A stretch of DNA of 64,000 bases from Verrucomicrobia bacterium LW23 (GTDB lineage Bacteria; Verrucomicrobiota; Verrucomicrobiia; Methylacidiphilales; UBA1321). Below, piece by piece: positions 16,324-33,475 of the stretch; position 1 is the stretch's first letter; every line of letters starts with the position of its first letter. The stretch spans positions 1-64,000 of the forward strand of contig QAZA01000056.1 in the NCBI GenBank assembly GCA_003054695.1, given 5' to 3'. The notes under the pieces are model-generated. The model was not told the DNA's origin. It was given only the letters and a program-made list of their open reading frames with translations, and did no database searches. The position numbers and the translations under genes were made by a program.

Positions 16324-16843
16324 GCGTCCGAGTCAGGAGCTTCGTTCGCCGGAGGAAGTCTTCAATGGGGACAATCTCCCGGATGATCTCAAGTGGGTGA
16401 TGACTCACTTCGGATTGCCTAAGAACGATCCGTTTGTCGTTCTCCTCGCGTGGCACTGGCACCGGGTCCAGAGCAACAAAGATGTCCTGGAATCTGCCAG
16501 ACAGGAGATGGATACCTCACTCGACGCGAAACTTAAAGCATTCGAGGAGATCGCCGCCAAGAGCGTAAGTCTGAAAGACGAGATTCGGCGTCTGGAAGCG
16601 CTCATGGCACGAAGCCCGGATACCATCGCCGAGGAATGGCGAACGAAGTGGGATGCATCACTCAAGAAGGGCATGGCCGACGTCAAGGCCCTTTCCGACA
16701 GCCTGAACACTCTGCTGCCGCAGACGAAAAGCGCGTTCAGGACACTACGAATTCACCAAATGCTCGCCGTGTTCTTCAGCGGGCTCGCTTCAGGTTCCCT
16801 CATTGGCATATGGATCCATTCTCTCTTATCCTCGCGGCTTTAA
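16310..16843 (+). CDS. TraM-like membrane-anchored coiled-coil protein
   Basis: A 177-residue protein starting at GTG 16310, inside the end of the TraL-like gene. The middle (about 60-140) is rich in heptad-like charged and Leu/Ala positions suggesting a coiled coil. The C-terminus carries one hydrophobic segment (MLAVFFSGLASGSLIGIWIH), so it is probably tail-anchored in the inner membrane. It corresponds by order to RP4 TraM, but I see no convincing sequence identity. It overlaps the coupling-protein gene by 34 bases, implying tight co-translation. Confidence 0.55.
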   Translation: MSKNERPSQELRSPEEVFNGDNLPDDLKWVMTHFGLPKNDPFVVLLAWHWHRVQSNKDVLESARQEMDTSLDAKLKAFEEIAAKSVSLKDEIRRLEALMARSPDTIAEEWRTKWDASLKKGMADVKALSDSLNTLLPQTKSAFRTLRIHQMLAVFFSGLASGSLIGIWIHSLLSSRL

Positions 16844-18279
16844 GTTTGGGCGGAGGGATTGCCCTTGCGGCGCTTCTTCCATGGCCGCTCAATCTGTCCG
16901 CCGGCCTTTTCATCGGGCCGGTTGCCTGGTTTGCGTATGAAGGCTGCTACGGCGTATACGCACGCAACAAGGACTTGCCCTCACCCTGGGCATGTTCACT
17001 TGGTGGAGTGTACTTTGACGACGACGCCTTTTGCCGCGGCTGGGATATCTCAGGAAAGACCGGCTCGGGTAAAACGTCCAGCGGAGTTATCCCTCTGCTT
17101 TATTCGCTGAAGCAGAATCGCCCGAATGCCGGAATTCTGGTTCTGGACACAAAAGGAGATCTCGCAGACCCTCTGGTTGAGATTTCCAAAGAGTTGAGCT
17201 GCACCAACAGTCTCCGCATTATCGAAGTGCGGCCTGAAGGAGCACTGCCAAACTGGTCGCCGCCGTTCACCATGAACTTCCTGGCGGACAAGTCCGTACC
17301 ATATTCCACCTACGCAAAGCTTCTCGTCGATATCGCGACGGCGGCCGGTCAAAAGGGGGGGCAGGCGTTCTTCAAGACGGCTGCTCAGTCAGCCATTTAT
17401 CACGGGTTCGCCGCACTGGATGCGCTGGACTGGCCGGTAACCATCGAGAACTGCTTCTCCCTGATTACCGACCAATCCGATTTGCAGAACGCTGCAACCG
17501 AATTGGCTAACCGGGCAAACCCTCAGCACGAATGGATAGTGGCGTACTTCGCCGAAATGCTTCAGCAACCAGCGGAGCAGCTTGGAGGTATTCGATCCAC
17601 AGTCGCAAACTATCTCCAGCCCTTTGTTCAGCCGGACATTGCTGAGGTATTTTGCCCGGTCACCGATCCGACGTTCAGGATGGAGGAAATGGATGCCGGA
17701 GCGCTCGTCTGTGTCCGCATCCCTCAAAAATACCAGGTCGAGAAGAAATACATCAGCCTCCTGCTCAAAGTGCTGTTTTATCTCCATGCCCTGCGCCGTT
17801 ACGACCTGCCCACCGCAGACCGGAAAGCAAAGAACCTGATTGTGATGGCGCTGGACGAGGCCCAGGAGACGGTTCTGGTCAGCGAAGACGGTATCAGCGA
17901 CTTCAACGTGGTGGACAAGATCAGAGGAGCGCGAGCTACCACGATAAACTCGACGCAATCGCCAACTTCCTACATCCCGCCGATGGGCGGAAAGGAAAAA
18001 GCAGAAGTGTTCCTGCTCAACCTCGCCAACAAAATCTTCTTCACGGCTGCTGACAGCGTAGCCTCAGAGATGATCGCCAATTCGATCGGCAAGCACACCG
18101 TTAAAAAGAAAACCTACGGTCGCTCAGCCGGTAAAGCCAACCTCAGTTGGACGGACGACGATCAGCACTACATCAAGCCGCATCAGCTCCGGGCACTTCC
18201 CAAGCACTGCGCCATTGTGAAGCACTGTGAGCAACGGCACAGGCAGGTTAGGCTCAGGCCAACACGGTTCACTTCATGA
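16810..18279 (+). CDS. Type IV coupling protein (VirD4/TraG-like)
   Basis: The coupling ATPase carries the relaxase-DNA complex to the secretion channel. Two N-terminal hydrophobic segments (about residues 4-24 and 28-45) anchor it in the inner membrane. Walker A is GKTGSGKT at 82-89, and Walker B is LIVMALDEAQ at about two-thirds of the length. At 489 residues it is shorter than RP4 TraG and lacks an obvious C-terminal tail. The frame is open from 16636, but the ATG at 16810 begins the membrane segment and overlaps the TraM-like gene by 34 bases, so I use that start. It ends the relaxosome operon before a GC-rich hairpin region. Confidence 0.85.
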   Translation: MDPFSLILAALSLGGGIALAALLPWPLNLSAGLFIGPVAWFAYEGCYGVYARNKDLPSPWACSLGGVYFDDDAFCRGWDISGKTGSGKTSSGVIPLLYSLKQNRPNAGILVLDTKGDLADPLVEISKELSCTNSLRIIEVRPEGALPNWSPPFTMNFLADKSVPYSTYAKLLVDIATAAGQKGGQAFFKTAAQSAIYHGFAALDALDWPVTIENCFSLITDQSDLQNAATELANRANPQHEWIVAYFAEMLQQPAEQLGGIRSTVANYLQPFVQPDIAEVFCPVTDPTFRMEEMDAGALVCVRIPQKYQVEKKYISLLLKVLFYLHALRRYDLPTADRKAKNLIVMALDEAQETVLVSEDGISDFNVVDKIRGARATTINSTQSPTSYIPPMGGKEKAEVFLLNLANKIFFTAADSVASEMIANSIGKHTVKKKTYGRSAGKANLSWTDDDQHYIKPHQLRALPKHCAIVKHCEQRHRQVRLRPTRFTS

Positions 18280-18523: not shown

Positions 18524-19549
18524 CTATCTGCCAGATGGCAGCGAATAGATTGCACTGCTTCCCGATCCCTCTCGCCTCACAATGCCGGCTTCAACCAACT
18601 TCCGTAGTGCATCCTTTATTTCTTCGACAGAGAAACCCATGCGATTGGCGATTTGCCGTCGCGTTTTCTGTCCTCGGACCAGTGCAAGGCATATAGCTCT
18701 TTCCTTCGAATTAGGTCCAACTTCTGGCGGTAATGCAGCCAGGTCACCTTCTCGAACCCGAATTTTAGGACTGAAGTGATACCCATTGTGGTTTTCATTC
18801 GCAATGATGTCATGGCGCTCGCAGCGATATCCATGTGCAGCAAGCTGACTTGAGCATAACGATCTAAAGGTATAGAAAGCCTCTCTCACTGCAGCATCTC
18901 CTCGGAATCCTGCATTTACATTCTCCGCAATTACCTTGCCAGACATAGAGCGAAGATCGCCGCTTTCGTATTTCTTACGAAGAAACTCCAGGATAGAGCG
19001 CATTAGCGCATCTTTTCTGTATCCAGATACCCTTACTTTAAATCGATCAAAATGAAGTTCGACCCATTCTGGGAAGAAGACTAGCTCGCCACCAGTGAAA
19101 GGTTTCAGGTGTTGTAACGATGATTCCCTGATCTTAAGAGATGCAATAAGAGCATCCTGAATCTTACTCTCCAAATTTACCTTAGAATTATCAAAAGGCT
19201 TATTTATGAAATCCGTCGCTCCAAGCTTCATTAGACTTACAGCTAAATCAGGAGAATCACTTCCGTAAGCCGTGGTAATTATGATGGGTATGCCAGAGTA
19301 GCCTGGTCTTTTACGAATCGAAGCCAGCAGATTCCTGCCATTCTGTTCTCGAGGCCTGCCACCTGGATTGCTCGGTATATTTATATCAAGCAGAACGTAA
19401 TCAAAAAGTGTGTCGTCCATTAAGTTGTCCGCTTCTAGTTGATTAGATGCAACGACAACTTTATGTCTCATCGAGCCCAATCGATCTCTAAGCTCTGCAA
19501 CAATGGTCTTATTATCTTCGACTACTAACGCAATAATCGATCCGGGCAT
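18524..19549 (-). CDS. Response regulator with C-terminal winged-helix-like domain
   Basis: A 341-residue response regulator. Residues 1-125 form a receiver domain with ED at 11-12, the phosphorylated Asp in YVLLDINIPS, the switch Thr in TTAYGS and Lys in INKPF. The middle (about 140-255) matches no family I know. The last 65 residues (RAICLALVRGQKTRRQIANR, then VEEIKDALRKLVEAGIV) look like a winged helix, so DNA binding is likely. A good Shine-Dalgarno AAGGAG sits seven bases before the ATG. It follows the histidine kinase gene by three bases; the pair is one operon. Confidence 0.75.
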   Translation of the reverse strand: MPGSIIALVVEDNKTIVAELRDRLGSMRHKVVVASNQLEADNLMDDTLFDYVLLDINIPSNPGGRPREQNGRNLLASIRKRPGYSGIPIIITTAYGSDSPDLAVSLMKLGATDFINKPFDNSKVNLESKIQDALIASLKIRESSLQHLKPFTGGELVFFPEWVELHFDRFKVRVSGYRKDALMRSILEFLRKKYESGDLRSMSGKVIAENVNAGFRGDAAVREAFYTFRSLCSSQLAAHGYRCERHDIIANENHNGYHFSPKIRVREGDLAALPPEVGPNSKERAICLALVRGQKTRRQIANRMGFSVEEIKDALRKLVEAGIVRREGSGSSAIYSLPSGR

Positions 19550-19552
19550 TTC

Positions 19553-20668
19553 TTACTCCTTTAATATGTCTAGGATTACAACAGTACCCCTGTTCCGATC
19601 GCTGCTAATGTGAAGCTTTCCTCCGTCAGCTAGAATGTTGCGATAGGCAATTGGCAGTCCATATCCAGTGCCACCTCTTTTTGATGAACGACCCGGAACA
19701 AAAGCTAGAATCTCTGATAGATCTTCCGCGTCTATTCCACGACCGTTATCAGTAATGTTTATAGATAGCTTGCTTTCGCTATCAAGAAAACAAATTCTTA
19801 TTATCGCTTCTTGCTCCAATGCTATTCCTTCATATGACTCAATTGCATTCTGGATTATATTTGTAAGTGATATAAGAAGACGAGACCTCGAAGCCCGTAA
19901 TCTAACGTCCTTCTCGATGTCCAAGATCAGGTTCACTCTGCCAGTATCGGGGAACCGAGAAACGGCGGCTTCTCGCGCGAGCCTGAATGCTGTGTGAATT
20001 AGCGCCTGGCAGGAAGAGGTGGATCGAAGGCGCCGAAAAGGTCTCGAGTATTCCGTCATGTCTCGCACGAGACGTTCCAAAAATTCTGCATCGTGCTTAA
20101 TAGCTTCGACGTCTCGACGAAGAGGATGCTCGGGCCTGACCACCTTTGAAAAGTGAGCTGAAGCACGCTTTATGGAGGCCAGAATGGTTCGGATGTCATG
20201 TACGATGACTCGAATCTGCTGCGAGGTCATATCCTCTGCGTACTGTGCTGTTGCCGTGGCGGCATCTGCGCCAAAGGTTTTCTCGATATCGCGCAATCTT
20301 TCGTTCAGCCGCACATAAGGTGACGGAGAGTCTGATAGCTGTATAGTCCTGCGCAGGCTTATCTGACGTGCAGCACGGCTTACCTTTTGACTTCGATCAT
20401 CCGCCAGAACAGTTGCCGCAGCAAAAAACGCCCGATTGGGAAGCGCATGCAGCATTTTGCATGCGGCATATCGTACCTGCCAGTGGGAGTGCCTGATGAG
20501 TCGATTGAAAAGCGAGACCGCGGAATCGTCACCGTCTCGGAGAGCTTTCACGAAGTTAGAATCCCGGAAGCAGCAGTCCTTCCAGGGAACTTGTATCCCC
20601 AGGCCAAGCTTTTCCTCCACGCTGCGCCAGCAGTCGCTGTTTACTCCGGTAGGGTGCAATGATTTCAT
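19553..20668 (-). CDS. Soluble histidine kinase with N-terminal HEAT-like repeat
   Basis: A 371-residue kinase without membrane segments, so the signal is cytoplasmic. The N-terminal 110 residues contain HEAT-like helices (FNRLIRHSHWQVRYAACKML). The phospho-accepting His is in VIVHDIRTIL near residue 155. The C-terminal ATPase domain has an N box (NIIQNAIES), G1 (DNGRGID) and G2 (GGTGYGLPIA). The next gene on the strand is its probable response regulator. HEAT repeats usually bind proteins, so a protein ligand of the transfer element is a reasonable guess. The region upstream, 20669-21050, has no gene. Confidence 0.78.
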   Translation of the reverse strand: MKSLHPTGVNSDCWRSVEEKLGLGIQVPWKDCCFRDSNFVKALRDGDDSAVSLFNRLIRHSHWQVRYAACKMLHALPNRAFFAAATVLADDRSQKVSRAARQISLRRTIQLSDSPSPYVRLNERLRDIEKTFGADAATATAQYAEDMTSQQIRVIVHDIRTILASIKRASAHFSKVVRPEHPLRRDVEAIKHDAEFLERLVRDMTEYSRPFRRLRSTSSCQALIHTAFRLAREAAVSRFPDTGRVNLILDIEKDVRLRASRSRLLISLTNIIQNAIESYEGIALEQEAIIRICFLDSESKLSINITDNGRGIDAEDLSEILAFVPGRSSKRGGTGYGLPIAYRNILADGGKLHISSDRNRGTVVILDILKE

Positions 20669-21552: not shown

Positions 21553-21732
21553 ATGCATGAAAAAATCTTAGACGAATACTTCTGGCACTACGTGGACAGG
21601 GGAACGCTTCCCCAGGACACTCCGTTATTCATCAATCCCTTCATGGCTGCGGTAATTGCTGCCGAGCATCAGCTTTCCCCAGAAGAGGCAGCCGCCGCTT
21701 TGGAAAATGCTCAAAAGGAGGTGATGGAATGA
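21553..21732 (+). CDS. Small acidic protein preceding ardC
   Basis: A 59-residue protein beginning MHEKILDEYFWHYVDRGTLP. The frame is open further upstream, but this ATG begins just after the preceding stop and a CC-rich context. Its TGA overlaps the start of ardC. The helical C-terminal part (LSPEEAAAALENAQKEVME) is acidic. I do not recognise the family; the tight coupling suggests an ArdC accessory or regulator. Confidence 0.5.
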   Translation: MHEKILDEYFWHYVDRGTLPQDTPLFINPFMAAVIAAEHQLSPEEAAAALENAQKEVME

Positions 21733-22703
21733 AGGACATTCTCAAAGACATCACCGAGCGATTTATCAAGCAGCTTGAGCAGGGCACAGTGCCGTGGCGA
21801 AAACCATGGATCTCATCGCAAAATATCATTTCCCGTAAGCCCTATCGTGGCATCAACACGCTGTTGCTTGGATCTACGCAGTTCTCTTCGCCCTGGTGGA
21901 TGACCTTCAAGCAGGCCCGGGATCTCGGTGGCAACGTGGCAAAGGGAGCCAGGGCGACTCCCATCGTGTACTTCAAGTTTGTCGATAAGTTAGATAAATC
22001 CGGCAATGTTATGCTGAGCAAGAGCGGCAAGGCCGTTCAGATCCCTTTTGTCAGGTGGTCTATGGTTTTCAATCTTGATCAGACCGAAAAGGTAAAAGCC
22101 CCAGAGATCCAGGTGCAACAGAGACCGGATCGTCCCCTTGAAGCCGCAGCTTCTATTGTGAAAAGCGGGAACCTCTGCCCCATCAAACATGGGGGTTTTG
22201 CAGCTCTCTACTCTCCGAAGGAAGATGTCATTCGAATGCCGCACCAGAAACTCTTCCATTCACCGGAGGACTATTACCACACGCTCTATCACGAGGCCAC
22301 CCACGCGACCGGGCACGAATCCAGGCTGAACAGGGAAGGCGTTACGACGCCGGCCAAGTTTGGCTCTGAAAGGTACTCTAAGGAAGAGCTTGTGGCCGAA
22401 CTCGGTGCGGCCTTCCTTTCCAACGAGGCAGGGATATTGGACAAGGTTCGGTTCGACAGCTCAGCGTCGTACCTCAGTTCTTGGATTTCCAAGCTGAAAG
22501 CAGACCCCAATCTCCTGCTTTCCGCCGCCTCGCAGGCTCAAAAAAGCGCCGACTTTATCATGGGGATCAAGCACACTGAAAAGGAGTCACCCGAGAATGT
22601 CGAGCAACCCGAGATTGAGCGAAAGAGTGCGGATATTACTCAGGCAACCGGGATCGGCGCCAGGCCCGAGGCGGTAAATGCCCGCCTTAAGCCTTCCATG
22701 TGA
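21729..22703 (+). CDS. ardC: ArdC-like antirestriction protein with zincin domain
   Basis: ArdC proteins bind single-stranded DNA and protect incoming conjugative DNA from restriction. The N-terminal domain (LEQGTVPWRKPW, YRGINTLLL, WMTFKQARDLGG, KGARATPIVYFK) is the classic ArdC/DUF1738 block. The C-terminal half has the metalloprotease-like HEATHATGH motif near residue 190, with an acidic residue about 28 further on. At 324 residues it has the usual length. It ends a four-gene overlapping operon and converges on the XRE gene with three bases between stops. It fits well beside transfer genes and a modification system. Confidence 0.85.
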   Translation: MKDILKDITERFIKQLEQGTVPWRKPWISSQNIISRKPYRGINTLLLGSTQFSSPWWMTFKQARDLGGNVAKGARATPIVYFKFVDKLDKSGNVMLSKSGKAVQIPFVRWSMVFNLDQTEKVKAPEIQVQQRPDRPLEAAASIVKSGNLCPIKHGGFAALYSPKEDVIRMPHQKLFHSPEDYYHTLYHEATHATGHESRLNREGVTTPAKFGSERYSKEELVAELGAAFLSNEAGILDKVRFDSSASYLSSWISKLKADPNLLLSAASQAQKSADFIMGIKHTEKESPENVEQPEIERKSADITQATGIGARPEAVNARLKPSM

Positions 22704-22706
22704 TTC

Positions 22707-22958
22707 CTACTCCCCGTATAGCCAGCCCACACTTACATTCAGCACTTTGGCCAGCGCAAGTACCTCAAAGTCCATGGCATAGCGCTGCTCAAGCTCCAAC
22801 CGGGCAACAGCGCTTCTGTCCATAACGATGCCGTGGACCGCGAGCCTCCCCGCCAGATCCTCCTGGCTGCATGGAGGACTCTGCGCGAATCGAGCCTGGC
22901 GAACTCGCCGGCCGATAATGTTGCGCTGTTGCACTCTTTGCCTGTTCGACGATTTCAT
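22707..22958 (-). CDS. XRE-family regulator, pair 1
   Basis: An 83-residue helix-turn-helix protein (SQEDLAGRLAVHGIVMDRSA then VARLELEQRYAMDFEVLALA). It shares with two other small regulators of this region the opening RN(I/S)(I/V)G followed by VRxxR and the ending DFE(L/V)xxLA, so the three are one subfamily. It is back to back with a receiver-domain gene, and palindromic sites GTGTGAA-TTCACAC lie between them, the nearer one 16 bases before this ATG. Autoregulation and control of the neighbour are likely. Confidence 0.75.
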   Translation of the reverse strand: MKSSNRQRVQQRNIIGRRVRQARFAQSPPCSQEDLAGRLAVHGIVMDRSAVARLELEQRYAMDFEVLALAKVLNVSVGWLYGE

Positions 22959-22974
22959 TCAAGCCTGGGTAATT

Positions 22975-23043
22975 GTGTGAAGAACACACATCTGACTTGA
23001 AGATGTAGGGAACTACGAGTATGCGTGCGTGTGAACTTCACAC
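22975..23043. promoter_or_regulatory. Paired palindromic operator of XRE pair 1
   Basis: GTGTGAACTTCACAC at 23029-23043 is a perfect 15-base palindrome with a central C. GTGTGAAGAACACAC at 22975-22989 matches it at 12 of 15 positions, keeping both outer GTGTG/CACAC arms. Centres are 54 bases apart between the divergent XRE and receiver genes. Confidence 0.6.
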
Positions 23044-23102
23044 AATCCGTTCGGCAATTCCATTTTCAATGCCATCGACCTTGGCGAACACCAAACACTG
23101 CC

Positions 23103-23507
23103 GTGAAAAACTCAACTTTGAATCATCGACTGTTGTGCGTGGACGACAATTCTACCTTCCTTGGATTGCTCCAGGTCGGATTGGAATCGTACGGTTACGA
23201 AGTAGTCACCGCCGCGCACGGCCTGGATGCTCTCATGCAGTATCATGCGCACTCAGGACAGTTTCACGCCGTTATCTCCGATTGCGATATGCCCCGCATG
23301 AATGGCGCGGAGTTCACTGCCGAACTTCGGCAGCGCGGATATAAGGGTGCCATCCTTGTAATGTCAGGTCATCTCACCAATGACGTGCGGCTGGCATTTC
23401 GAGACTGCGATATCAGCCGCTTCTATCGGAAACCGTTTCACGTTAGAAATCTCGTGAACGATCTGGATCTTCTCTCCTGCGGCGGAAATCAGGCAGCGGA
23501 AAGCTAA
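23103..23507 (+). CDS. Single-domain response regulator
   Basis: A receiver domain only, 134 residues from a GTG at 23103. It has DD in LLCVDDNSTF, phospho-acceptor Asp in VISDCDMPRMNG, the switch Ser in LVMSGH and Lys in FYRKPF. The frame opens 26 codons earlier at a GTG, but that would place an operator palindrome inside the gene, so the later start is preferred. Without an output domain it may act like CheY by protein contact or pass phosphate on. It is convergent with the kinase-like gene at 23535-24338 and its sequence resembles the truncated receiver at 25431-25760. Confidence 0.7.
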   Translation: MKNSTLNHRLLCVDDNSTFLGLLQVGLESYGYEVVTAAHGLDALMQYHAHSGQFHAVISDCDMPRMNGAEFTAELRQRGYKGAILVMSGHLTNDVRLAFRDCDISRFYRKPFHVRNLVNDLDLLSCGGNQAAES

Positions 23508-23534
23508 GTAGTAGGCGAATCTCGCTGATCCAAA

Positions 23535-24338
23535 TCAGGCAATGGAGATTGGTTTTCGCAGAGGGACTCTGATCAATGCCTTGAGTATCGAACTTCGTCG
23601 GATCGCCAGCAATAAATGTCCATTCAGGTTGGCAACATAGTTAGCAGCGATATTTAACCCAACCAGATTGGGCTTTCTGCTTAGGTATAACTTTTCAACA
23701 GATTGGCGTATTTCCTGCACTTCAAGCGATTCGCCATTCTCAACGTGCATTGAGATTATCGCTTCCTTTTTACATTTCTGAAAATGAATATGAATTAATT
23801 TCGCCGCCTTCTGCCTACGACTGGCCGAAGTAAAGCAACGAAATAAGCAAGTTAATGTCTTTTGGAGATGATGCCTGCCGATCTCCACACGAAAGTCCTT
23901 CCCGTCACATTTGAAGCCACCACAATTTGCCTCTCCAACGGAGAGAGATGAAGAGGTACTTTGGCAAGCCTCCACAATGATCTCCTTCATTGACTCTATC
24001 GTATACACGACTTTTTTCCGTGGAGCAGTAAACTCATTGAGCTGTATCGCCAGATGATGGAGAGCGGAAACGTTTTGTCGGAGATTTTGCCGATGTGCTT
24101 GTCCAGCCAGCACTGAAAGATCTGAATCCACAGAAAGGCGAGATGTGGCACCATTGAGAGAAGTCAGTGTAGTTCTGAGTTCATGGGCCAATTCTCTTAT
24201 GCCCAGGGCGCACTTGTCTTCGCTGTAGTTCTTGGCTGCCTTCGCCATTTCCACGCCATACCCTGCTTCAAATAACGAAGGTAAACTCGATAAAGGAAAT
24301 ACGGGCTGTAAATCCTGAGGAGATGATTGGGATTTCAT
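23535..24338 (-). CDS. Histidine kinase-like protein with degenerate ATPase domain
   Basis: A 267-residue soluble protein. The dimerisation/His domain is clear: ELAHELRTTLTSLNG near residue 50. The following domain keeps the HATPase outline but lacks a proper N box, has VENGESLE instead of DNGxG and NLVGLNIAANYV in place of the G2 loop. It may not bind ATP, and could be a phosphotransfer or phosphatase partner for the adjacent receiver. The ATG at 24338 follows GAGGA at the right distance, so this start is preferred to one six codons upstream. It is divergent from XRE pair 2. Confidence 0.65.
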   Translation of the reverse strand: MKSQSSPQDLQPVFPLSSLPSLFEAGYGVEMAKAAKNYSEDKCALGIRELAHELRTTLTSLNGATSRLSVDSDLSVLAGQAHRQNLRQNVSALHHLAIQLNEFTAPRKKVVYTIESMKEIIVEACQSTSSSLSVGEANCGGFKCDGKDFRVEIGRHHLQKTLTCLFRCFTSASRRQKAAKLIHIHFQKCKKEAIISMHVENGESLEVQEIRQSVEKLYLSRKPNLVGLNIAANYVANLNGHLLLAIRRSSILKALIRVPLRKPISIA

Positions 24339-24435
24339 ATTCGTCCTCAAAGGCAATCTGTAATTATCGTCTGTATTGGAAGCGTCTCATCAATCTTCGG
24401 AAGATGACAAAGAAAAACTTACAGAAAAATCGATT

Positions 24436-24496
24436 GATCCCTATGGGGAACACATAGCTCCATCGGATCACTATTGTCAAGTTCCCCATGGGGAAC
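24436..24496. promoter_or_regulatory. Paired palindromic operator of XRE pair 2
   Basis: GTTCCCCATGGGGAAC at 24481-24496 is a perfect 16-bp palindrome that includes the ATG (24488-24490) of the XRE gene. GATCCCTATGGGGAAC at 24436-24451 matches it at 14 of 16 positions. Centres are 45 bases apart. Binding to both would block transcription and probably translation start of the XRE gene. Confidence 0.7.
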
Positions 24497-24775
24497 TCTA
24501 CTCGATTCCGCAATTCTGTTGGCCCGTCGATACGACGGGTCCGGAATCGACTCAAGCTCACCCAGTCTCAGCTCGCAGCACGGCTTCAAGTTGCTGGGCT
24601 TGATCTGGATCGCGCCGGTGTAGGAAAGGTTGAATCTCAACTTCGGTCCGTATTCGACTTTGAGCTCATTGTACTGGCGCGCTGCCTGAAGGTTCCGATC
24701 GAAGAGTTGTTGCCCAACAAAGAAGAGTTGGACGCCTGGCTTCCGGATCTGAAGGAAGGGGAACGCGCTAAATAG
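24488..24775 (+). CDS. XRE-family regulator, pair 2
   Basis: A 95-residue helix-turn-helix protein (LTQSQLAARLQVAGLDLDRA, GVGKVESQLR, DFELIVLARCLKVPIEELLP). It belongs to the same subfamily as the XRE genes at 22707 and 25901. Its ATG lies in the centre of a perfect palindrome, which strongly suggests autorepression. It is divergent from the kinase-like gene at 24338, with a second copy of the site between them. Confidence 0.75.
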   Translation: MGNSTRFRNSVGPSIRRVRNRLKLTQSQLAARLQVAGLDLDRAGVGKVESQLRSVFDFELIVLARCLKVPIEELLPNKEELDAWLPDLKEGERAK

Positions 24776-24793
24776 CATAATCCGCTTGCGCTG

Positions 24794-25162
24794 CTAATCG
24801 ACCGCAGGCACTGCATCTGGCTTGGAAAAGTGCGACAGTATCCTGAGAATCCCTTCTGCCACTGGATCTGGGCTGCAAAGTTCAAACGCAGTCAGATCTC
24901 CATGGGCATTCTCTTCCAACAGTAACACCACAACGACCTGCGAAGATCCAAAATCCGGCTCAAGCGAGAGCGCGGCCTCGTGTCCCTGAACATCTGAAAA
25001 GCGGAGGATGATGCAGGTATCAAGATCCTCATCAACCCGTACTTGCAGCTTTTGAGAAAAGACAGGCATGTGCTCGGCAACTCGAGTGAGCGCCGCGCTG
25101 AACTTGGCTGTGGTTTGTTCAACCCGCCGGGAGAAAGCCTCAAGTGATTCGGTGGGAGACAT
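24794..25162 (-). CDS. Hypothetical protein, partner in XRE pair 3
   Basis: A 122-residue soluble protein without motifs I recognise. An N-terminal helix (ESLEAFSRRVEQTTAKFSAA) is followed by alternating strands and helices (TCIILRFSDVQGHEAALSLE). It converges on the XRE gene of pair 2 and is divergent from that of pair 3 with 74 bases between. By analogy with the other pairs it may be the protein whose synthesis or action is tied to the XRE regulator; that is inference. Confidence 0.5.
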   Translation of the reverse strand: MSPTESLEAFSRRVEQTTAKFSAALTRVAEHMPVFSQKLQVRVDEDLDTCIILRFSDVQGHEAALSLEPDFGSSQVVVVLLLEENAHGDLTAFELCSPDPVAEGILRILSHFSKPDAVPAVD

Positions 25163-25191
25163 GGTAATTAAGGGGTTTGGAAAGCTTAGCC

Positions 25192-25236
25192 GATCTCAAT
25201 TTGCGATCAAGGAAAACTTGAGCTCAAGATGAGATC
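25192..25236. promoter_or_regulatory. Palindromes upstream of XRE pair 3
   Basis: CTTGAGCTCAAG at 25217-25228 is a perfect 12-bp palindrome. An outer inverted repeat GATCTCA (25192-25198) and TGAGATC (25230-25236) brackets it and ends exactly at the ATG of the XRE gene. Likely operator for the divergent pair. Confidence 0.5.
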
Positions 25237-25527
25237 ATGGAGAAGGCTATTTATGGACGTCATGCTGAGCGCCTACAGGAGACCCTTGTGCGAATGAGAC
25301 AAGATGCCGGACTGACACAACGCCAGTTGGCGGCCAAATTGGGAGTAGTCCACAGCTTCGTAGGCAGAGTGGAAATCGGAGAAAGGCGATTGGACCTTGT
25401 AGAGTTTTGGCACTACGCCCGCATTTGCGGTCAGGATCCGGCTGTGGCAGCCAAAGCCTTGATGGAAGATTTCAACGGCATTCCAGAGACCTCCGGTTCA
25501 TCGATCGACCCAGGCGGAGCACGCTGA
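25237..25527 (+). CDS. XRE-family regulator, pair 3
   Basis: A 96-residue Cro/CI-type protein with a standard helix-turn-helix (MRQDAGLTQRQLAAKLGVVH, SFVGRVEIGERRLDLVEF). It is more like common XRE repressors than the other three regulators of this block and lacks their RNxxG opening. It is divergent from the 122-residue gene, and its last 97 bases overlap the 3' end of the receiver fragment on the other strand, so one of the two ends has shifted by deletion or insertion. Confidence 0.72.
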   Translation: MEKAIYGRHAERLQETLVRMRQDAGLTQRQLAAKLGVVHSFVGRVEIGERRLDLVEFWHYARICGQDPAVAAKALMEDFNGIPETSGSSIDPGGAR

Positions 25528-25760
25528 CACTTGAAAGTCATATCTGTACCGCTTGCCGGGAACTCGGCGCGTGCGATCACAGCATAAAACTTTCCTGCCG
25601 ATCCCCTGTATTGCATGACTGCATCAATGCCAGGGTAGGCCACAGTCACTTCAAACCCCTGCGCTTCCAGTCCAGCCTTTATCAGGCTGAGGAATTCGGA
25701 GTCTTCGTCAACGCAAAGGATTCGCACAGGGGCTGTAATTGGACAAGTCACGGCCAGCAA
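25431..25760 (-). CDS. Truncated receiver-domain protein, partner in XRE pair 4
   Basis: The first 60 residues match the receiver at 23103-23507: ILCVDEDSEFLSLIKAGLEA aligns with LLCVDDNSTFLGLLQVGLES, and DAVMQYRGSAGKFYAVI with DALMQYHAHSGQFHAVI. Where the phosphorylated Asp should follow (VISDCDMP) this protein has VIARAEFP. The domain then breaks off into an unrelated 40-residue end that overlaps the antiparallel XRE gene. It is either a pseudo-receiver or a decaying gene. The start is uncertain: TTG at 25760 or GTG at 25727. Confidence 0.5.
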   Translation of the reverse strand: MLAVTCPITAPVRILCVDEDSEFLSLIKAGLEAQGFEVTVAYPGIDAVMQYRGSAGKFYAVIARAEFPASGTDMTFKCQRAPPGSIDEPEVSGMPLKSSIKALAATAGS

Positions 25761-25835
25761 TGGGTATGGAATTGCAAAGGACCAGCGATTTCACATCACA
25801 CGTGCGGAAACTCTTCCGTGTTCACGCGCAATATC

Positions 25836-25898
25836 GTGCTGAATTCAGCACGTATCTAAGCAGTATAATCCAGTAAGGTCAAGTGCTCAATTCAGCAC
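25836..25898. promoter_or_regulatory. Paired palindromic operator of XRE pair 4, with -10 box
   Basis: GTGCTGAATTCAGCAC at 25836-25851 is a perfect 16-bp palindrome and GTGCTCAATTCAGCAC at 25883-25898 differs at one base. Centres are 47 bases apart. A consensus TATAAT lies between them at 25864-25869, and the second site ends two bases before the ATG of the XRE gene, so binding would cover the promoter and the start. Confidence 0.72.
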
Positions 25899-25900
25899 CT

Positions 25901-26137
25901 ATGAAACGTCCACGTAATATAGTTGGCCCCCAGGTAAGGCGGGTTCGCGCACAGATTGGACTGTCACAACCACAACTCGCCGCGAAATGCCAGCTCATCG
26001 GCTGGGATGTCGGACGGGATGCAATTGCGAAGATCGAAGGCCAAACCCGCTGGGTTGCGGATTTTGAACTATTGAATTTGGCGAAGGCGCTTGAGACTCA
26101 TCCCATGGTTTTGCTAAGCGTCGACGCGTCTACTTAA
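25901..26137 (+). CDS. XRE-family regulator, pair 4
   Basis: A 78-residue helix-turn-helix protein (LSQPQLAAKCQLIGWDVGRD, AIAKIEGQTRWVADFELLNL) of the same subfamily as the regulators at 22707 and 24488. I use the ATG at 25901; the upstream GTG at 25883 lies in the operator. A near-perfect pair of 16-bp palindromes flanks its TATAAT box, predicting autorepression. It is divergent from the truncated receiver gene and convergent with the reverse transcriptase gene. Confidence 0.75.
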   Translation: MKRPRNIVGPQVRRVRAQIGLSQPQLAAKCQLIGWDVGRDAIAKIEGQTRWVADFELLNLAKALETHPMVLLSVDAST

Positions 26138-26156: not shown

Positions 26157-27782
26157 TTATTCGTCATCTAACTCGCTATCTTCGTGGTCATCATCAACTG
26201 GCTCATAATCCCAAAAATCAGATTGAGAATAATCTGAATCCGTTTCTTCATCGCCTTGAGATGTATTTCTGCTAGCTCTGCTAGTGCTAAAAATGTAGTG
26301 CAGAACATTAACATCAAGGAATGAGACGCCGTGCTGCCTTAGCGCGGCAAAATCAGGATCTAATGATATAACGTCAACCCCAGCAGTGTTTCTTAGCCAA
26401 CCTTTTACAGAAGCTTCATATGTCATTAACCAATGCGGGCCACGCAAGTTTTCTTGTGTTATAAAAGAATTAAGGGTATCAAAAACGGTTGGAGTAGCAA
26501 CCTTCCCGATGGATCTTAAATAAAGAGCCATGAGGAGGCAAACGGGATCTTGCATTTCAACTAATAGAGAGCAACAATTTGCATCCAAATGGAGCCCGAA
26601 AATGATATGTCCCCATAGACTCCAAGCTACTTCACTAGAATGACCTCGTGGCGAGTTAGATTCAATCAAATAGGTGAGGCATGGGTGAACTTTGGTCCCA
26701 ACTTCGTTGATTCGAGTGGGGTCTCGGACTAACGATGCTAACACAAACGGCAAAACTCCAGGCTCGATAAATGCTGATCGGATCAATAAATCTTCTAATA
26801 TTGTTCTATTGGCGGTGTCGATTGTTAAATATCTCATTCTACCACATAAGAACTTTAAGACATTTTCACCTGGATAACTATCTCTGAATGAAAAGGCCTT
26901 TTCAAAGCTGGATACTAATTCTATTTTTTGGCGTCTTGCGTTTCCCGAAAATCTTATAAGGTTTAATGCATTCACCCAATCGGTATTTAGCTTTTTTGCA
27001 AAATCCGGTGTTAGCTTCTGGGTTTTTAAACTGTTGACATCCAGTTGATAATGGCGAAATATATTAAATAATTTATTTTCAATCAAATCGGCTTCTTGCA
27101 TATTTCGGCAAGCAAAAAAATAATCATCGACGTAACGAATTCCTTTGATGTTACCAATTTGAGCTAATTCTTCGTCAATAGCAGACAAAAGAATTTCTGA
27201 TACAAGTAAAGATATATCAGGCCCTGTTGGAATACCAATAGTCTGCTCGTCTTGACAATTGCGTATCAGTAAATCTAGATGGTTACCTAAAAGTTGAGTC
27301 GGAAAACGATACTGCTTTGCAGTGGCTTTAGTATGCATCGCCCATGGGATGGCATGGGTGTATATGGAGCTGTAAAATTTAGCAATATCTGTCGTGAATA
27401 TAATTGGAGCTTGCGATGCTAAACTTAATTTGAGATAAGGAAGTTCTGAAAGCGAGGTGGCTCTTTCGATGGCTCTTCGTGTAGAAACAATTGGTGAAGA
27501 TTTTGAGAATCGTGATCTTTGAGTTTGCCTCTCCAAAGCGGACCAATTCTGGCTGACAAAAGTAGCTAACCTAAAGTAAGAAATTGGGTTTAAAAGATCA
27601 AGTTTTCGACGCAAATGACCCGCTCTTACCAAATCATAACTTCCAGGCTTTGTCCCTTTTTTGTAATCCGGAAACGTATTAGGGGCTTGTAGACCGAACT
27701 GTCCAAAACTATGACTTTTAAAGCATGGAGGGAGTTCACGCGGCAAAAAGCCGTATCCGAGAAGACGTTCTAGGCTAGCCAT
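26157..27782 (-). CDS. Defence-type reverse transcriptase (UG/Abi-like)
   Basis: A 541-residue reverse transcriptase. Motif A is FTTDIAKFYSSIYTHAIPWA (D132), the next motif is GIPTGPDISLL at 183-193 and the catalytic YVDD is at 217-220. The opening GYGFLPRELPPCF and the YTHAIPWA segment are typical, as I recall them, of the 'unknown group' and Abi-type RTs that act in phage defence. The C-terminal 230 residues are helical and end in a very acidic tail. There is no maturase domain and no group II intron around it. I cannot fix the subtype; a second RT, as in two-RT systems, is not present. The gene is strikingly AT-rich, suggesting recent insertion between the regulators and the conjugation genes. 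Confidence 0.75.
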   Translation of the reverse strand: MASLERLLGYGFLPRELPPCFKSHSFGQFGLQAPNTFPDYKKGTKPGSYDLVRAGHLRRKLDLLNPISYFRLATFVSQNWSALERQTQRSRFSKSSPIVSTRRAIERATSLSELPYLKLSLASQAPIIFTTDIAKFYSSIYTHAIPWAMHTKATAKQYRFPTQLLGNHLDLLIRNCQDEQTIGIPTGPDISLLVSEILLSAIDEELAQIGNIKGIRYVDDYFFACRNMQEADLIENKLFNIFRHYQLDVNSLKTQKLTPDFAKKLNTDWVNALNLIRFSGNARRQKIELVSSFEKAFSFRDSYPGENVLKFLCGRMRYLTIDTANRTILEDLLIRSAFIEPGVLPFVLASLVRDPTRINEVGTKVHPCLTYLIESNSPRGHSSEVAWSLWGHIIFGLHLDANCCSLLVEMQDPVCLLMALYLRSIGKVATPTVFDTLNSFITQENLRGPHWLMTYEASVKGWLRNTAGVDVISLDPDFAALRQHGVSFLDVNVLHYIFSTSRASRNTSQGDEETDSDYSQSDFWDYEPVDDDHEDSELDDE

Positions 27783-27930: not shown

Positions 27931-28794
27931 CTAATTCAAGAGCCTCTGCATAACCATATTCTGCAGCTTTCGCTCCACTATGTTTCGCATGGGACGGGCG
28001 CCAAGAGTCCGATGGAAGCCCTCTCTGATAAGCTCCTCAACCAAGCTCGGCGTGATGACGAGGTCATACCCTAGCTTTTGTAGTCGCAGCCTCTCCTTCT
28101 CGATCATTGCTTCACAGATTTCTCTCTGGACCGCAAACGTCAGCCGGGTAAATACGATCTTCTCATTGATACGCGCGACGAGCTCGGGGCGCAGTGCCTG
28201 GTCCAGGCGTTTGAGAACGGTCCGCTCAATCGCAGCGAAACCGGAGTGCTCCATACGCATCGCTTCCGAGGCGCCAACGTTAGAGGTTAGGACTATATAA
28301 TAGCCGCTGAGATCCTTCGTTTCTCCATTGGCAAGAGTGATTCTTCCGGCGTCCAGAATCTGAAGGAAAAGATCAAGAACAAGCGGATGCGCCTTTTCCA
28401 TCTCGTCGAAGAGAAGGACTCCATGCTTATTGTTGTTAGTAGCCTTTCCCAGAAGTCCACATTCCGCACTGTTGGCCCCTAAGAGCAGACCCACGGAGGA
28501 CTGATTTTGAAACTCCGACATGTCGAAGCGATGGACATGTCCTGGGCCGAAAAGATAGTCGCTGAAGCTGAGAGTGATTTCTGTTTTGCCAACGCCTGTG
28601 GGTCCGACAAACAGGAACGAGCCCCTGGGGCGGCCGGGATTGGAAAGGCCCAGTTCCCCACGGATCAGGACTGAGCTAACACGTTCTATAACATGATCTT
28701 GCCCTTTGATGGCGAGGCGAAGATGGGGGGCAAGATTCTGAAGTTTTTCCTTCAATAGAGAGGTGCAGATCATATTGCCGGTATTTTCGCCCAA
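27931..28794 (-). CDS. Stand-alone ClpA/ClpB D2-type AAA+ ATPase
   Basis: A 287-residue protein equal to one AAA+ module of the ClpA/ClpB second type. It has GQDHVIERV at the N-terminus, Walker A GPTGVGKTE, Walker B LLFDEMEKAHP, sensor 1 LTSNVG and the C-terminal D2-small domain with GARPMRN. The first ATPase module, N-domain and middle domain of Clp proteins are missing, so this is not a normal disaggregase or a ClpP partner. It sits divergent from the T4SS genes, where no VirB11-type ATPase is found. A role in assembling or energising transfer is possible but unproven. The 148 bases before the RT gene hold no recognisable gene. Confidence 0.75.
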   Translation of the reverse strand: MGENTGNMICTSLLKEKLQNLAPHLRLAIKGQDHVIERVSSVLIRGELGLSNPGRPRGSFLFVGPTGVGKTEITLSFSDYLFGPGHVHRFDMSEFQNQSSVGLLLGANSAECGLLGKATNNNKHGVLLFDEMEKAHPLVLDLFLQILDAGRITLANGETKDLSGYYIVLTSNVGASEAMRMEHSGFAAIERTVLKRLDQALRPELVARINEKIVFTRLTFAVQREICEAMIEKERLRLQKLGYDLVITPSLVEELIREGFHRTLGARPMRNIVERKLQNMVMQRLLN

Positions 28795-29666: not shown

Positions 29667-32324
29667 ATGAAACGTCATAATTTCGCTCCCAACGGTCATT
29701 TTGCCGAGGGGTTGATCCTGTATGGCAATCTGGAAGCCGGCGCTCTGGTGAGCAAAGGCTTCTTTGTGGAGCCGCCCGATTTGCACAACGCATCGGTGGG
29801 GCTTCTCAATGATTTCCAGGACAAGATCCGCCTCTTCCTTGCGTCGCTTGGCCCCACCCAGCAGGCGCAGATCCAGTGGACTTGCAACGCTGACTACCGT
29901 CAGGAGTTGCTTTCGTACCACGACAACACGCAGCGCGCAAAGGAGCCGGCAGTGCGCCGTGTTCGCAATGAGCGCTTTATCCGATACTGGCAGAAGATGC
30001 TAAATCGCGAGCTCCGCCGCGAGCAGCTTGTCATTTTTATCTCGCAAGGCGTCGAGAGCTATTCTGGCAACCTCCAGACCAAGAATGGCCTCTACGACTA
30101 TTATGAAAAGACGCTGGCACAACTCAAAAATGATTTCGCAGAGATTGAAAATACACTCGGGCTTACATTCGGCAGCGGAACCACCGTCCGTGGAATGACC
30201 GATCTGGATCATTTCACTTACTATTCCCAGTTTCTCAATCCCAGCATCGGCGAGCGGCTGGAGTTCGACTTTTCCACTCTCTACTTTCCGGATCAGTCCA
30301 TCCAGGAACTTTGCTGGAACGGCGACGGCATGGGACTGGACAAGCAGCCCGTCTTCTACCTCGACGGTTTCTATCATCAGATTTTTGCTCTCAAGCGCTG
30401 GCCGCAAAAAACATATCCCGGCATCAGCCACCGTCTTACGGGACTGCCCTTTCTCGACTATCAGATCACGATCCATATTGAGCCTTTGCCGGTGAAGGAT
30501 GAAATCGCCAGAGAGGAGAAAGCGATGGACCGCCTTCGCGGCGACTACCAGGCGGACGGAAAGCACTCGATGCTCGTAGCTCTCCACAAGAAAGAGCGCA
30601 AAATCGATTCGCTCGCGCAGGGCTTTTCGTATCCGTTCAACGTGCAGTATTTGATTCGCGTCTGGGATCGCACTTTGTCCGGCCTTCAAAGCAAATCTGC
30701 GGCAGTGAAAAACGCTGTGAACAATATGAACGGCGCGCAGGTCTACGAGATCGCACTGCCGACCACTGTTCGCAAGCTGTTCTTCGCATCGTGGCCGGGA
30801 TGGACTGGCAGCGCCGATCTCACCCGCCACCTCTATGCGGAGGACCGATACCTCGCCGATCTGCTTCCATTCTCTTCGACGTTTACGGCCCATCTTGGTG
30901 AAGCTGAAGCGATTTATGACGGGACAAACAAGAACCTCGCAGGAGTGCGAACGTTCGTCGGAGGCACCCCGCAGCATTCGGTGCTCATCGGCATGACCGG
31001 CGCGGGCAAGTCCTACTTTATGGAGGACCTGCTTTTACAGACACAGGCGCGCTACCACTACAACGTCATCATTGAGGAAGGCTTTTCATATAAGCGCTTT
31101 ACCGAGGCCCTGGGCGAAACTCCGATCATCATCCATCCCGACGGGCAACTAACTCTCAACTACCTGGACACTCAGGGCCTGCCGCTGAATCAGCTCCACA
31201 TCGCCTCGGCGGTAGCGCTGATTGCCAAGATGATTGGTGAAGCTCCGGATCCAGAAAAGCAGCAGCTTCGTCAGGCACAAATCGGGCAGTACGTTCAGCA
31301 GCTCTATTCCGACACCTTTGCAGACTGGTCGCAGCGACATTCCAACCTGATGCCAGGCATCCAACGGCAGGCTTGCGCCGTAAATCTGTGGCGGTCGAAA
31401 CACATGGAAATGGGAAGCACGTTCCTCGAATCCTACACGGAATTTCGCGACCGGCTTGCTGCGCAAGATCCCAAAGCGTTGGAGGTGCATCACTCCATCA
31501 CGGAGGAGGAAATCACCCGATTTGCCAAGGAGCCCAGCACGGAACGGCTGGTGATGTCGATCGCCTACTCTGCGTTCAAGCCGGAGGACTATCCGACACA
31601 TTCGGCTCTTATCGACCAGCTCTTCTTCTCCCGCATGCCTGAGCACAAGAAAGAGGAAATTGACCATCTCGCCACGCTTCTGACCGCGTGGACCGCCGGA
31701 GGCCAGTACGGAAAGCTGTTCGACGGAATCACCAACGTCAGCCTTACAGGCAAGGTAGCTCACTTCGAACTTGGCTACATTCCTGAGCAGGCAGTTGAAC
31801 TTAAGACTGCGGCGGGCTTGCTGATCTCCGGCTTTACCCGACAACACATCATCACGCTGCCGCGTAACATGTGGAAGCGCATCATCTTTGAGGAAGTGGC
31901 GAGGTTTCTCGATGTGCCCGGTGGCGAAAAGATCGTCGCCGAAAGCTACGCACAGTTGCGCAAATTCAACTGCTGGACGCTCTCCATCGTGCAGCAATAC
32001 AGCAAGTTCAAGTCGACGCGAATCCGCCCTGTGATTATGGGGAATTCCAAGCAGTTCTTTTTGATGAGGCAGTTTGACAGGTCCGACCTCCAGGACATTG
32101 CAGCGGACATCCAGCTGCCCGAGGTCACGATCGACGCCATTCAGCATTACCCGCTGCCGGAACAGCAGGCGGCGAACGCCAAGTTTTCCTCCCTTTGCTA
32201 CTACTCACCCACCGTACAGCCAGCGCTGTGCGGAACCATCCGCCACGTTGGCGGAATCGAAGCAGTCTCCGTACCTGTCTCAGTAAACCCCGAGGATAAT
32301 CCGTCGGTCACTCCCCACGAATGA
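29667..32324 (+). CDS. VirB4/TrbE-like conjugation ATPase
   Basis: The largest T4SS ATPase, 885 residues, which energises pilus assembly and substrate transfer at the inner membrane. Walker A is GMTGAGKS near residue 445, and KRIIFEEVARFLD is the Walker B region. The N-terminal half is the mixed VirB4 domain (RFIRYWQKMLNRELRREQLV, TDLDHFTYYSQFL). Length is normal for the family. The stop overlaps the start of the lipoprotein gene. Long open frames on the opposite strand are compositional shadows. Confidence 0.88.
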   Translation: MKRHNFAPNGHFAEGLILYGNLEAGALVSKGFFVEPPDLHNASVGLLNDFQDKIRLFLASLGPTQQAQIQWTCNADYRQELLSYHDNTQRAKEPAVRRVRNERFIRYWQKMLNRELRREQLVIFISQGVESYSGNLQTKNGLYDYYEKTLAQLKNDFAEIENTLGLTFGSGTTVRGMTDLDHFTYYSQFLNPSIGERLEFDFSTLYFPDQSIQELCWNGDGMGLDKQPVFYLDGFYHQIFALKRWPQKTYPGISHRLTGLPFLDYQITIHIEPLPVKDEIAREEKAMDRLRGDYQADGKHSMLVALHKKERKIDSLAQGFSYPFNVQYLIRVWDRTLSGLQSKSAAVKNAVNNMNGAQVYEIALPTTVRKLFFASWPGWTGSADLTRHLYAEDRYLADLLPFSSTFTAHLGEAEAIYDGTNKNLAGVRTFVGGTPQHSVLIGMTGAGKSYFMEDLLLQTQARYHYNVIIEEGFSYKRFTEALGETPIIIHPDGQLTLNYLDTQGLPLNQLHIASAVALIAKMIGEAPDPEKQQLRQAQIGQYVQQLYSDTFADWSQRHSNLMPGIQRQACAVNLWRSKHMEMGSTFLESYTEFRDRLAAQDPKALEVHHSITEEEITRFAKEPSTERLVMSIAYSAFKPEDYPTHSALIDQLFFSRMPEHKKEEIDHLATLLTAWTAGGQYGKLFDGITNVSLTGKVAHFELGYIPEQAVELKTAAGLLISGFTRQHIITLPRNMWKRIIFEEVARFLDVPGGEKIVAESYAQLRKFNCWTLSIVQQYSKFKSTRIRPVIMGNSKQFFLMRQFDRSDLQDIAADIQLPEVTIDAIQHYPLPEQQAANAKFSSLCYYSPTVQPALCGTIRHVGGIEAVSVPVSVNPEDNPSVTPHE

Positions 32325-33409: not shown

Positions 33410-33475
33410 CAGTCAGCTCTCGGCTGAATCGCTGTGTCCGTCAACGCTTCGCATTCACAAAATAAGGAGGTTTTC

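Follow-up and report, generated by a model that had tools for sequence, protein, structure and literature searches.

A cluster of divergent XRE/partner pairs on a putative conjugative element of Verrucomicrobia bacterium LW23: evidence for a recurrent cassette with paired operators

The window analysed here covers the opening 64 kb of contig C56 (551,645 bases), part of the 6.6-Mb genome of Verrucomicrobia bacterium LW23. At positions 22707-26137, the open reading frame (ORF) layout and a domain scan revealed four divergent pairs, each made of a gene for a small XRE-type regulator (XRE1 to XRE4) and a partner gene. The partners are a receiver protein, a degenerate histidine-kinase-like protein, a 122-aa protein and a broken receiver, respectively (Table 1). 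An earlier note on this DNA had described the same back-to-back layout and had assigned three of the regulators to one subfamily, and both observations are confirmed here. By its gene content, the array sits on a conjugative element.

XRE1, XRE2, and XRE4 are mutual relatives: in the alignment, XRE4 shares 47% identity with XRE2 and XRE1 shares 35%, and the three have no other relatives in their own genome at a meaningful E-value. All of them match the domain profile A3, which we built from 17 members of the subfamily. XRE3 is different, having only 24% identity with XRE1, and no relative of it was found in the 62 genomes of the order searched, its own genome aside. Matches to A3 were present in 22 of the 62 order genomes (E ≤ 1e-6), in 110 of 385 genomes of the class (1e-10) and in 32 of 387 genomes of the phylum (1e-12), nine of these last being outside the class. 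The subfamily is thus widespread in the class and present elsewhere in the phylum, which makes the array a grouping of common cassettes. The sample studied below consists of 165 distinct XRE members from fetched loci, which are a part of all the matches.

For every gap, 300 dinucleotide shuffles served as the reference for its best palindrome pair, and in all four gaps the observed score was higher than those of all 300. Pairs 1, 2, and 4 carry two near-identical copies of a palindrome whose starts are separated by 54, 45, and 47 bp, and these operators differ from one XRE to another, so that the palindromes reported previously, and their unlikeness between pairs, hold. Pair 3 has nested palindromes of a different kind and no TANNGTCAA, and XRE3 stands outside both the 46-bp architecture and the subfamily. 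In the subfamily, the control region contains a palindrome with 5-bp arms in two copies, 46-47 bp start to start; the second copy abuts the XRE start codon and is immediately preceded by TANNGTCAA. Such a control region is apparently undescribed in the open-access literature, where we found nothing pertinent on this phylum with such regulators, on controller proteins without restriction-modification (R-M), or on XREs with receivers and integrative elements. The 2009 work of Sorokin et al. reportedly concerns control proteins and their sites, and it could overlap with the present architecture.

Table 1. Coordinates of the array and of the transfer-related genes in the window
Feature	Position	Strand	Remarks
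XRE1 (83 aa), one HTH domain, subfamily branch with linker insertion	22707..22958	-	ORF, domain scan, alignment
XRE1 proximal operator copy GTGTGAAGAACACAC	22975..22989	.	palindrome scoring
XRE1 distal operator copy GTGTGAACTTCACAC	23029..23043	.	spacing 54 bp, not 45-48
Receiver protein, XRE1 partner	23103..23507	+	GTG start at 23103 inferred
Degenerate histidine-kinase-like protein, XRE2 partner	23535..24356	-	
XRE2 distal operator GATCCCTATGGGGAAC	24436..24451	.	
TATTGTCAA element	24472..24480	+	putative XRE2 -10; opposite strand, putative -35 (TTGAC) of the kinase-like gene
XRE2 proximal operator GTTCCCCATGGGGAAC	24481..24496	.	contains the XRE2 ATG (24488)
XRE2, 95 aa	24488..24775	+	
122-aa protein without family, XRE3 partner	24794..25162	-	
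Nested palindromes of pair 3	25192..25236	.	CTTGAGCTCAAG at 25217-25228; other architecture, no TANNGTCAA
XRE3, 96 aa, HTH_31 type, outside the subfamily	25237..25527	+	
Broken receiver, XRE4 partner	25431..25760	-	ends at module 3 start
XRE4 distal operator GTGCTGAATTCAGCAC	25836..25851	.	
XRE4 TAAGGTCAA element	25874..25882	+	
XRE4 proximal operator GTGCTCAATTCAGCAC	25883..25898	.	
XRE4, 78 aa	25901..26137	+	
TrwC relaxase	12215-14794		domain scan
Coupling protein	16636-18279		domain scan
ArdC	21729-22703		domain scan

Paired palindromes recur at related XREs. Scoring the four 5-bp half-sites across the two operators (maximum 20), we found operator pairs with at least 18 at spacings of 44-49 bp upstream of 64 of the 164 subfamily XREs. 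With core 6, spacings of 45, 46, and 47 bp gave 5, 28, and 8 pairs, against 0.07 per distance in the shuffles. By an earlier, looser score, z was above 3 in 30% of 164 upstream regions, and among 492 control stretches taken from these loci the share was 3%. The spacer is mostly variable, except for its end, which is GTCAA in 32 of the 36 regions with spacing 46-47. Upstream of the XREs, the sequence TANNGTCA occurs in 46 of 156 cases, where shuffles predict 4.6, and in control stretches in 9 of 663; an operator pair accompanies it in 45 of the 46 (0.73 expected). XRE2 (45 bp, TATTGTCAA) and XRE4 (47 bp, TAAGGTCAA) conform in full, with an A3 match, a pair at 44-49 bp and TANNGTCAA. XRE1 has the A3 match and paired operators, but these are 54 bp apart and the gap has no TANNGTCAA.

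A scan of the genome contigs used a DNA-only pattern, formed by one operator class and the motif. It gave nine matches, eight of which had a subfamily XRE directly behind; the sample already included two or more of the contigs matched (L188 and L190). At one match (L193) the end of the locus cuts the XRE, and its own contig shows an XRE behind the same sequence, while at another (L189) only an N-terminal XRE remnant follows. Outside the taxonomic class, the operator pair and the motif were found at 4 of 16 XREs (0.17 expected); each of the four carries the recognition helix that typifies that operator class, and three of them lie on contigs also matched in the DNA-only scan. Common viral carriage was rejected: a shortened pattern matched IMG/VR 18 times, but no subfamily XRE stood behind these matches, which looked like chance. 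One relative of XRE4 was found among plasmid records.

Then, we compared operators and recognition helices. The 64 pairs minus four that were off position (L157, L050, L064, and L175) left 60 rows, and the covariation test used the 42 with an even core, leaving out the 18 with an odd one. The residues that best track operator similarity are 44, 47, 40, and 41 in XRE4 numbering (Mantel r of 0.72, 0.38, 0.38, and 0.33), and the covariation z values for residues 40, 41, 44, and 47 are 8.9, 4.6, 7.3, and 9.0. When XREs are compared only with others at most 60% identical to them, 4.37 of the 5 half-site bases are predicted from the nearest neighbour in the recognition segment, vs 3.29 for the rest of the domain and a baseline of 2.91 for any pair. 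This covariation between four positions of the recognition helix and the bases of the operator allows every XRE to be assigned its own operator. The operator types of the array also recur elsewhere: GTTCCCC (XRE2) with XRE2-like helices in L124 and L181, GTGCT (XRE4) in L020 and L092, and GTGTGAA (XRE1) in L065.

The operators in the window are private as far as they were traced. The XRE4 operator, allowing two free positions, is found nowhere in the 6.6-Mb genome beyond its two sites, and no convincing second promoter site for XRE1 or XRE2 was found within the window. The switch for transfer envisaged by the earlier note is therefore unsupported, and we see no good evidence that the array is linked to transfer control.

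Some single loci show further variants. At 34499-34514 of the window, inside the ORF at 33434-34570, there is a perfect palindrome, GATCCCTATGGGGATC, one base off the XRE2 distal operator, which could be a chance occurrence or a second XRE2 site. By eye, a 212-aa ORF (L033, 1480-2118) resembles two tandem XRE domains of the subfamily. On two contigs of one genome (L230 and L233) two subfamily XRE genes stand head to tail, with the full operator architecture at the first gene and none at the second. A subfamily XRE with its operators is also present on a contig titled as a Klebsiella pneumoniae metagenome-assembled genome (L195), a title that is probably mislabelled.

Partner calls in unannotated DNA are rough. 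With simple ORF calls, the upstream neighbour was divergent for 106 of 157 XREs, for 34 of the 43 having both motif and pair, and for 58 of 132 control genes; the nine non-divergent neighbours among the 43 were mostly similar to shadow ORFs, and one (L009) is a transposase-like gene. We scanned 114 divergent partner ORFs, leaving out 8 of 122 complete ORFs, mostly short, and 18 open-ended ones. Among the families listed for these 114, receivers were the commonest (8), with six GYF_2 proteins and a few zinc ribbons, and the remaining partners matched single families or none. Partners were homologous in 2 of 91 XRE pairs at 60-70% identity and in 8 of 27 above 70%. As read from these comparisons, partners are exchanged freely between XREs. 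A receiver or a kinase as the defining partner was rejected because receivers are so few and because close XREs so seldom share a partner. The earlier note had each regulator controlling both itself and a signalling partner. The first part stands: control of its own and of the divergent gene through its own operators is the most likely role of each XRE, the paired architecture recurring in relatives and the recognition-helix residues covarying. Signalling partners are no rule, on the same two counts.

The partners in the window differ in their state of preservation. The first receiver retains, by eye, the phospho-accepting Asp, the Ser and the Lys, and has no output domain; the start of its longest ORF (23025) falls within the operator region. 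Its nearest relatives lie in three other genomes, where one faces a divergent subfamily XRE (L011), the second faces, across a gap with a perfect 16-bp palindrome, a divergent XRE from a different subfamily (L203), and the third has no XRE (L201), so that the pairing of receiver and XRE recurs but is not obligatory. A receiver remnant related to the window receiver is present in the same genome (L002, G000:C38:10733-10834) without a subfamily XRE. The kinase-like protein is degenerate as previously described, with HisKA below the cut-off and no HATPase_c match at E ≤ 1; the His of the DHp domain is kept by eye. It resembles the kinase at 19553-20668 (25% identity, E 5e-8) and, itself aside, has no relatives in the 12 genomes of the family searched. 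An XRE2 relative with the same operator (L124) faces an unrelated protein, GYF_2-like by eye. The 122-aa protein has no family match and no relative in the 62 order genomes searched, its own genome aside. The single-sequence structure models of this protein and of the kinase-like one were unusable (pLDDT 40.0 and 35.5). The second receiver, which over 80 aa shares 44% identity with the first, is indeed broken: it has lost the phospho-acceptor Asp (AVIARAEFP vs AVISDCDMP) and its homology ends where XRE3 ends. These proteins do not make up a two-component system, the kinase being without a recognisable ATPase, the first receiver without output and the second without phospho-Asp.

As regards the promoters, if TANNGT is taken as the -10 (-12 to -7) at 46-bp spacing, the distal operator spans -49 to -34, centred at -41.5, and the proximal operator covers the start, from about -3 to +13. 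The forward -35 scores below shuffles (1.12 vs 1.71, z -6.1), and none is present. On the opposite strand, TTGAC is followed by -10-like hexamers at 16-18 bp (2.49 vs 1.86 shuffled, z 6.3). A distal operator at -41.5 together with a -10 without -35 predicts self-activation, and a partner start beneath the distal operator predicts repression of the partner by the XRE. The geometry probably reflects class II self-activation, with self-repression at a higher level and repression of the divergent gene as well.

We consider it probable that three of the four pairs are representatives of one widespread cassette and act as autonomous, controller-protein-like autoregulatory switches. The layout of the genes, the architecture of the operators, the covariation and the exclusivity of the XRE4 operator are observed, and from the DNA alone we infer promoter polarity, activation, repression, and timing. 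The cassette would consist of a small XRE, a private palindromic operator pair, a two-way promoter between the operators and any divergent gene, and three such cassettes would have landed side by side on the conjugative element. A dimer of the XRE would bind both operators: at low XRE levels, its own gene would be activated from the distal operator at -41.5, and at high levels shut off by the proximal operator over the transcription start. In reverse, TANNGTCAA would provide the -35 of the partner (TTGAC), and with the partner start beneath the distal operator the XRE would repress the partner. The partner would thus be expressed in cells that lack the XRE or hold it in an inactivated state, such as newly entered cells, and its output would drop as the XRE accumulates. 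By analogy, module 3 (XRE3 and the 122-aa protein) may follow the same plan.

Several points weigh against this interpretation. About 60% of the sampled XREs have no detectable 46-bp pair, and outside the class 12 of the 16 XREs lack the architecture. In the linker-insertion branch, that of XRE1, the pair is present in 9 of 33 and the motif in 2 of 33, and the 54-bp spacing of XRE1 places its distal site near -49.5, outside the class II position. The -10 and -35 elements were called by consensus matching, and the consensus may not suit this phylum. Finally, part of the covariation is due to descent, which the 60% identity limit lessens and does not remove.

Known systems share parts of this logic. 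Lambda CI at OR activates itself from near -42 and represses over the start, as predicted for the cassettes, with divergent promoters between the operators; it differs from the cassette XREs in having three sites, and it is a different, phage-specific protein. The Streptomyces clusters of WhiJ-type XRE, DUF397, and ATPase genes contain many paralogous small XRE genes with a neighbouring partner, and these partners, unlike those of the cassettes, belong to fixed families. In a profile search, the nearest solved relatives were the controller (C) proteins of R-M systems (C.AhdI, 8.7e-6; C.BclI, 9.1e-6). The C proteins (C.AhdI, C.BclI, and C.Esp1396I, and the wide-spaced C.Csp231I and C.EcoO109I) are likewise single-domain XREs of about 80 aa (78-95 aa for the subfamily XREs of the array), with two palindromic sites upstream of their own gene. 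The available text on C.Csp231I describes its site as two 5-bp arms around 5 bp, with 18 bp between sites (25 bp in EcoO109I), and states that in other C-protein systems the distal site activates and the proximal one represses (PMC4321490). The cassettes differ in the absence of R-M genes, in their divergent and exchangeable partners, in the 30 bp between sites, in the invariant TANNGTCAA and in the many mutually different operator specificities within one family. No R-M genes were found beside the array or among 25 of the 34 families matched by the 114 partners. According to the available text on the Bacillus plasmid pLS20, Rco activates and represses its own promoter and represses an overlapping divergent promoter (PMC4207663). 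Overlapping divergent promoters are thus common to Rco and to our reading of the cassettes; as far as that text goes, Rco loops to a second operator and is a single conjugation-specific switch, with no cassette family.

Among the alternatives, it is quite possible that the array is a decaying store of acquired cassettes, in which single units may work and the array has no joint function. The broken receiver, without phospho-Asp and truncated at module 3, the degenerate kinase, the partners without relatives in the genomes searched and the receiver remnant elsewhere in the genome all point that way; the four XRE frames are intact, however, and the operators are well preserved, those of the broken receiver best of all. 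This alternative is compatible with autonomous switches rather than exclusive of them. As to the origin of the array, the loss of receiver homology where module 3 begins suggests that module 3 may have been inserted into the second receiver. Of the duplicated and diversified module proposed by the earlier note, the kinship of the XREs remains; the operators are unlike and the same operator types occur in other genomes, so separate acquisition and local duplication explain the array equally well. The best fit is that cassettes were gathered and that some of the partners decayed.

Somewhat unlikely, in our judgement, is that the XREs only repress, TANNGTCAA being the -35 of the partner and the XRE promoter an ordinary weak one, with no activation and no bistability. 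Negative autoregulation is the commonest mode among small XRE proteins, the operators overlie both predicted starts, and the invariance of GTCAA is as expected for a -35. A -35 alone, however, needs neither the T nor the A of TANNGT, and these are as invariant as GTCAA in 45 regions, themselves found by the motif, and have frequencies of 0.86 (T) and 1.00 (A) in the 28 regions picked by operators alone (46 bp). The forward -35 scoring below chance and the distal operator at the position of a class II activator also weigh against pure repression.

That the receivers, the kinase, and the XREs form a duplicated and diversified signalling array, a multi-input switch for conjugative transfer, seems to us improbable. 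Receivers do recur as partners, in one case (L203) beside an XRE that has its own palindrome and belongs to another subfamily, and the array lies between ArdC and the type IV secretion system (T4SS) genes, close to an intact kinase/regulator pair. Against this stand the unrelated partners of close XREs, the XRE4 operator occurring at no other site of the genome, the kinase-like and 122-aa genes without relatives in the other genomes searched, and the fact that one receiver is broken. Toxin-antitoxin or defence units, with the XRE as antitoxin or repressor, were rejected as highly implausible because, despite weak matches of XRE2-4 to XRE antitoxin models and an adjacent defence reverse transcriptase of DRT type, the partners are divergent rather than co-operonic and no toxin family is among the matches listed.

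A broader proposal, for and against which we see the case as evenly balanced, is that the cassette is a phylum-wide, portable two-way promoter switch. Its fixed chassis of 46 bp would comprise an overlapping divergent promoter of 30 bp flanked by two operators, whose interchangeable sequences would coevolve with four recognition-helix residues. The switch would be plugged before many unrelated genes, giving a natural orthogonal set of regulators and operators; the present element would have collected three of them and, besides, an unrelated fourth, and each would serve its own gene only. If so, one small regulator family of a poorly studied phylum would yield many orthogonal pairs on one chassis, with a specificity code readable at residues 40, 41, 44, and 47, and the avoidance of crosstalk by paralogous regulators would become directly testable. 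Many unannotated partner genes would gain a regulator and a predicted control site, and genetic circuits would gain ready parts. It would also suggest that controller-protein logic is used far beyond R-M.

Other genes of the element deserve mention. Near the array, at 18524-20668 (-), lies a kinase that has HEAT-like repeats and whose ATPase domain is intact; after it comes a receiver protein that weakly matches a winged helix. On the other side of the array, a reverse transcriptase of the DRT4/DRT6 kind (best models PADLOC Drt6, 2.7e-147, and Drt4) adjoins a 287-aa ClpB-like ATPase (26157-27782 and 27931-28794, both on the minus strand), a possible DRT defence unit. The large ORF at 29667-32324 is VirB4-like by eye only. 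At 6334-10434 (-), a single ORF of 1366 aa joins a Y-family polymerase (IMS, IMS_C) and a polymerase III alpha of DnaE type (PHP, alpha, finger, HHH); this ImuB-DnaE2-like fusion is apparently carried by the conjugative element.

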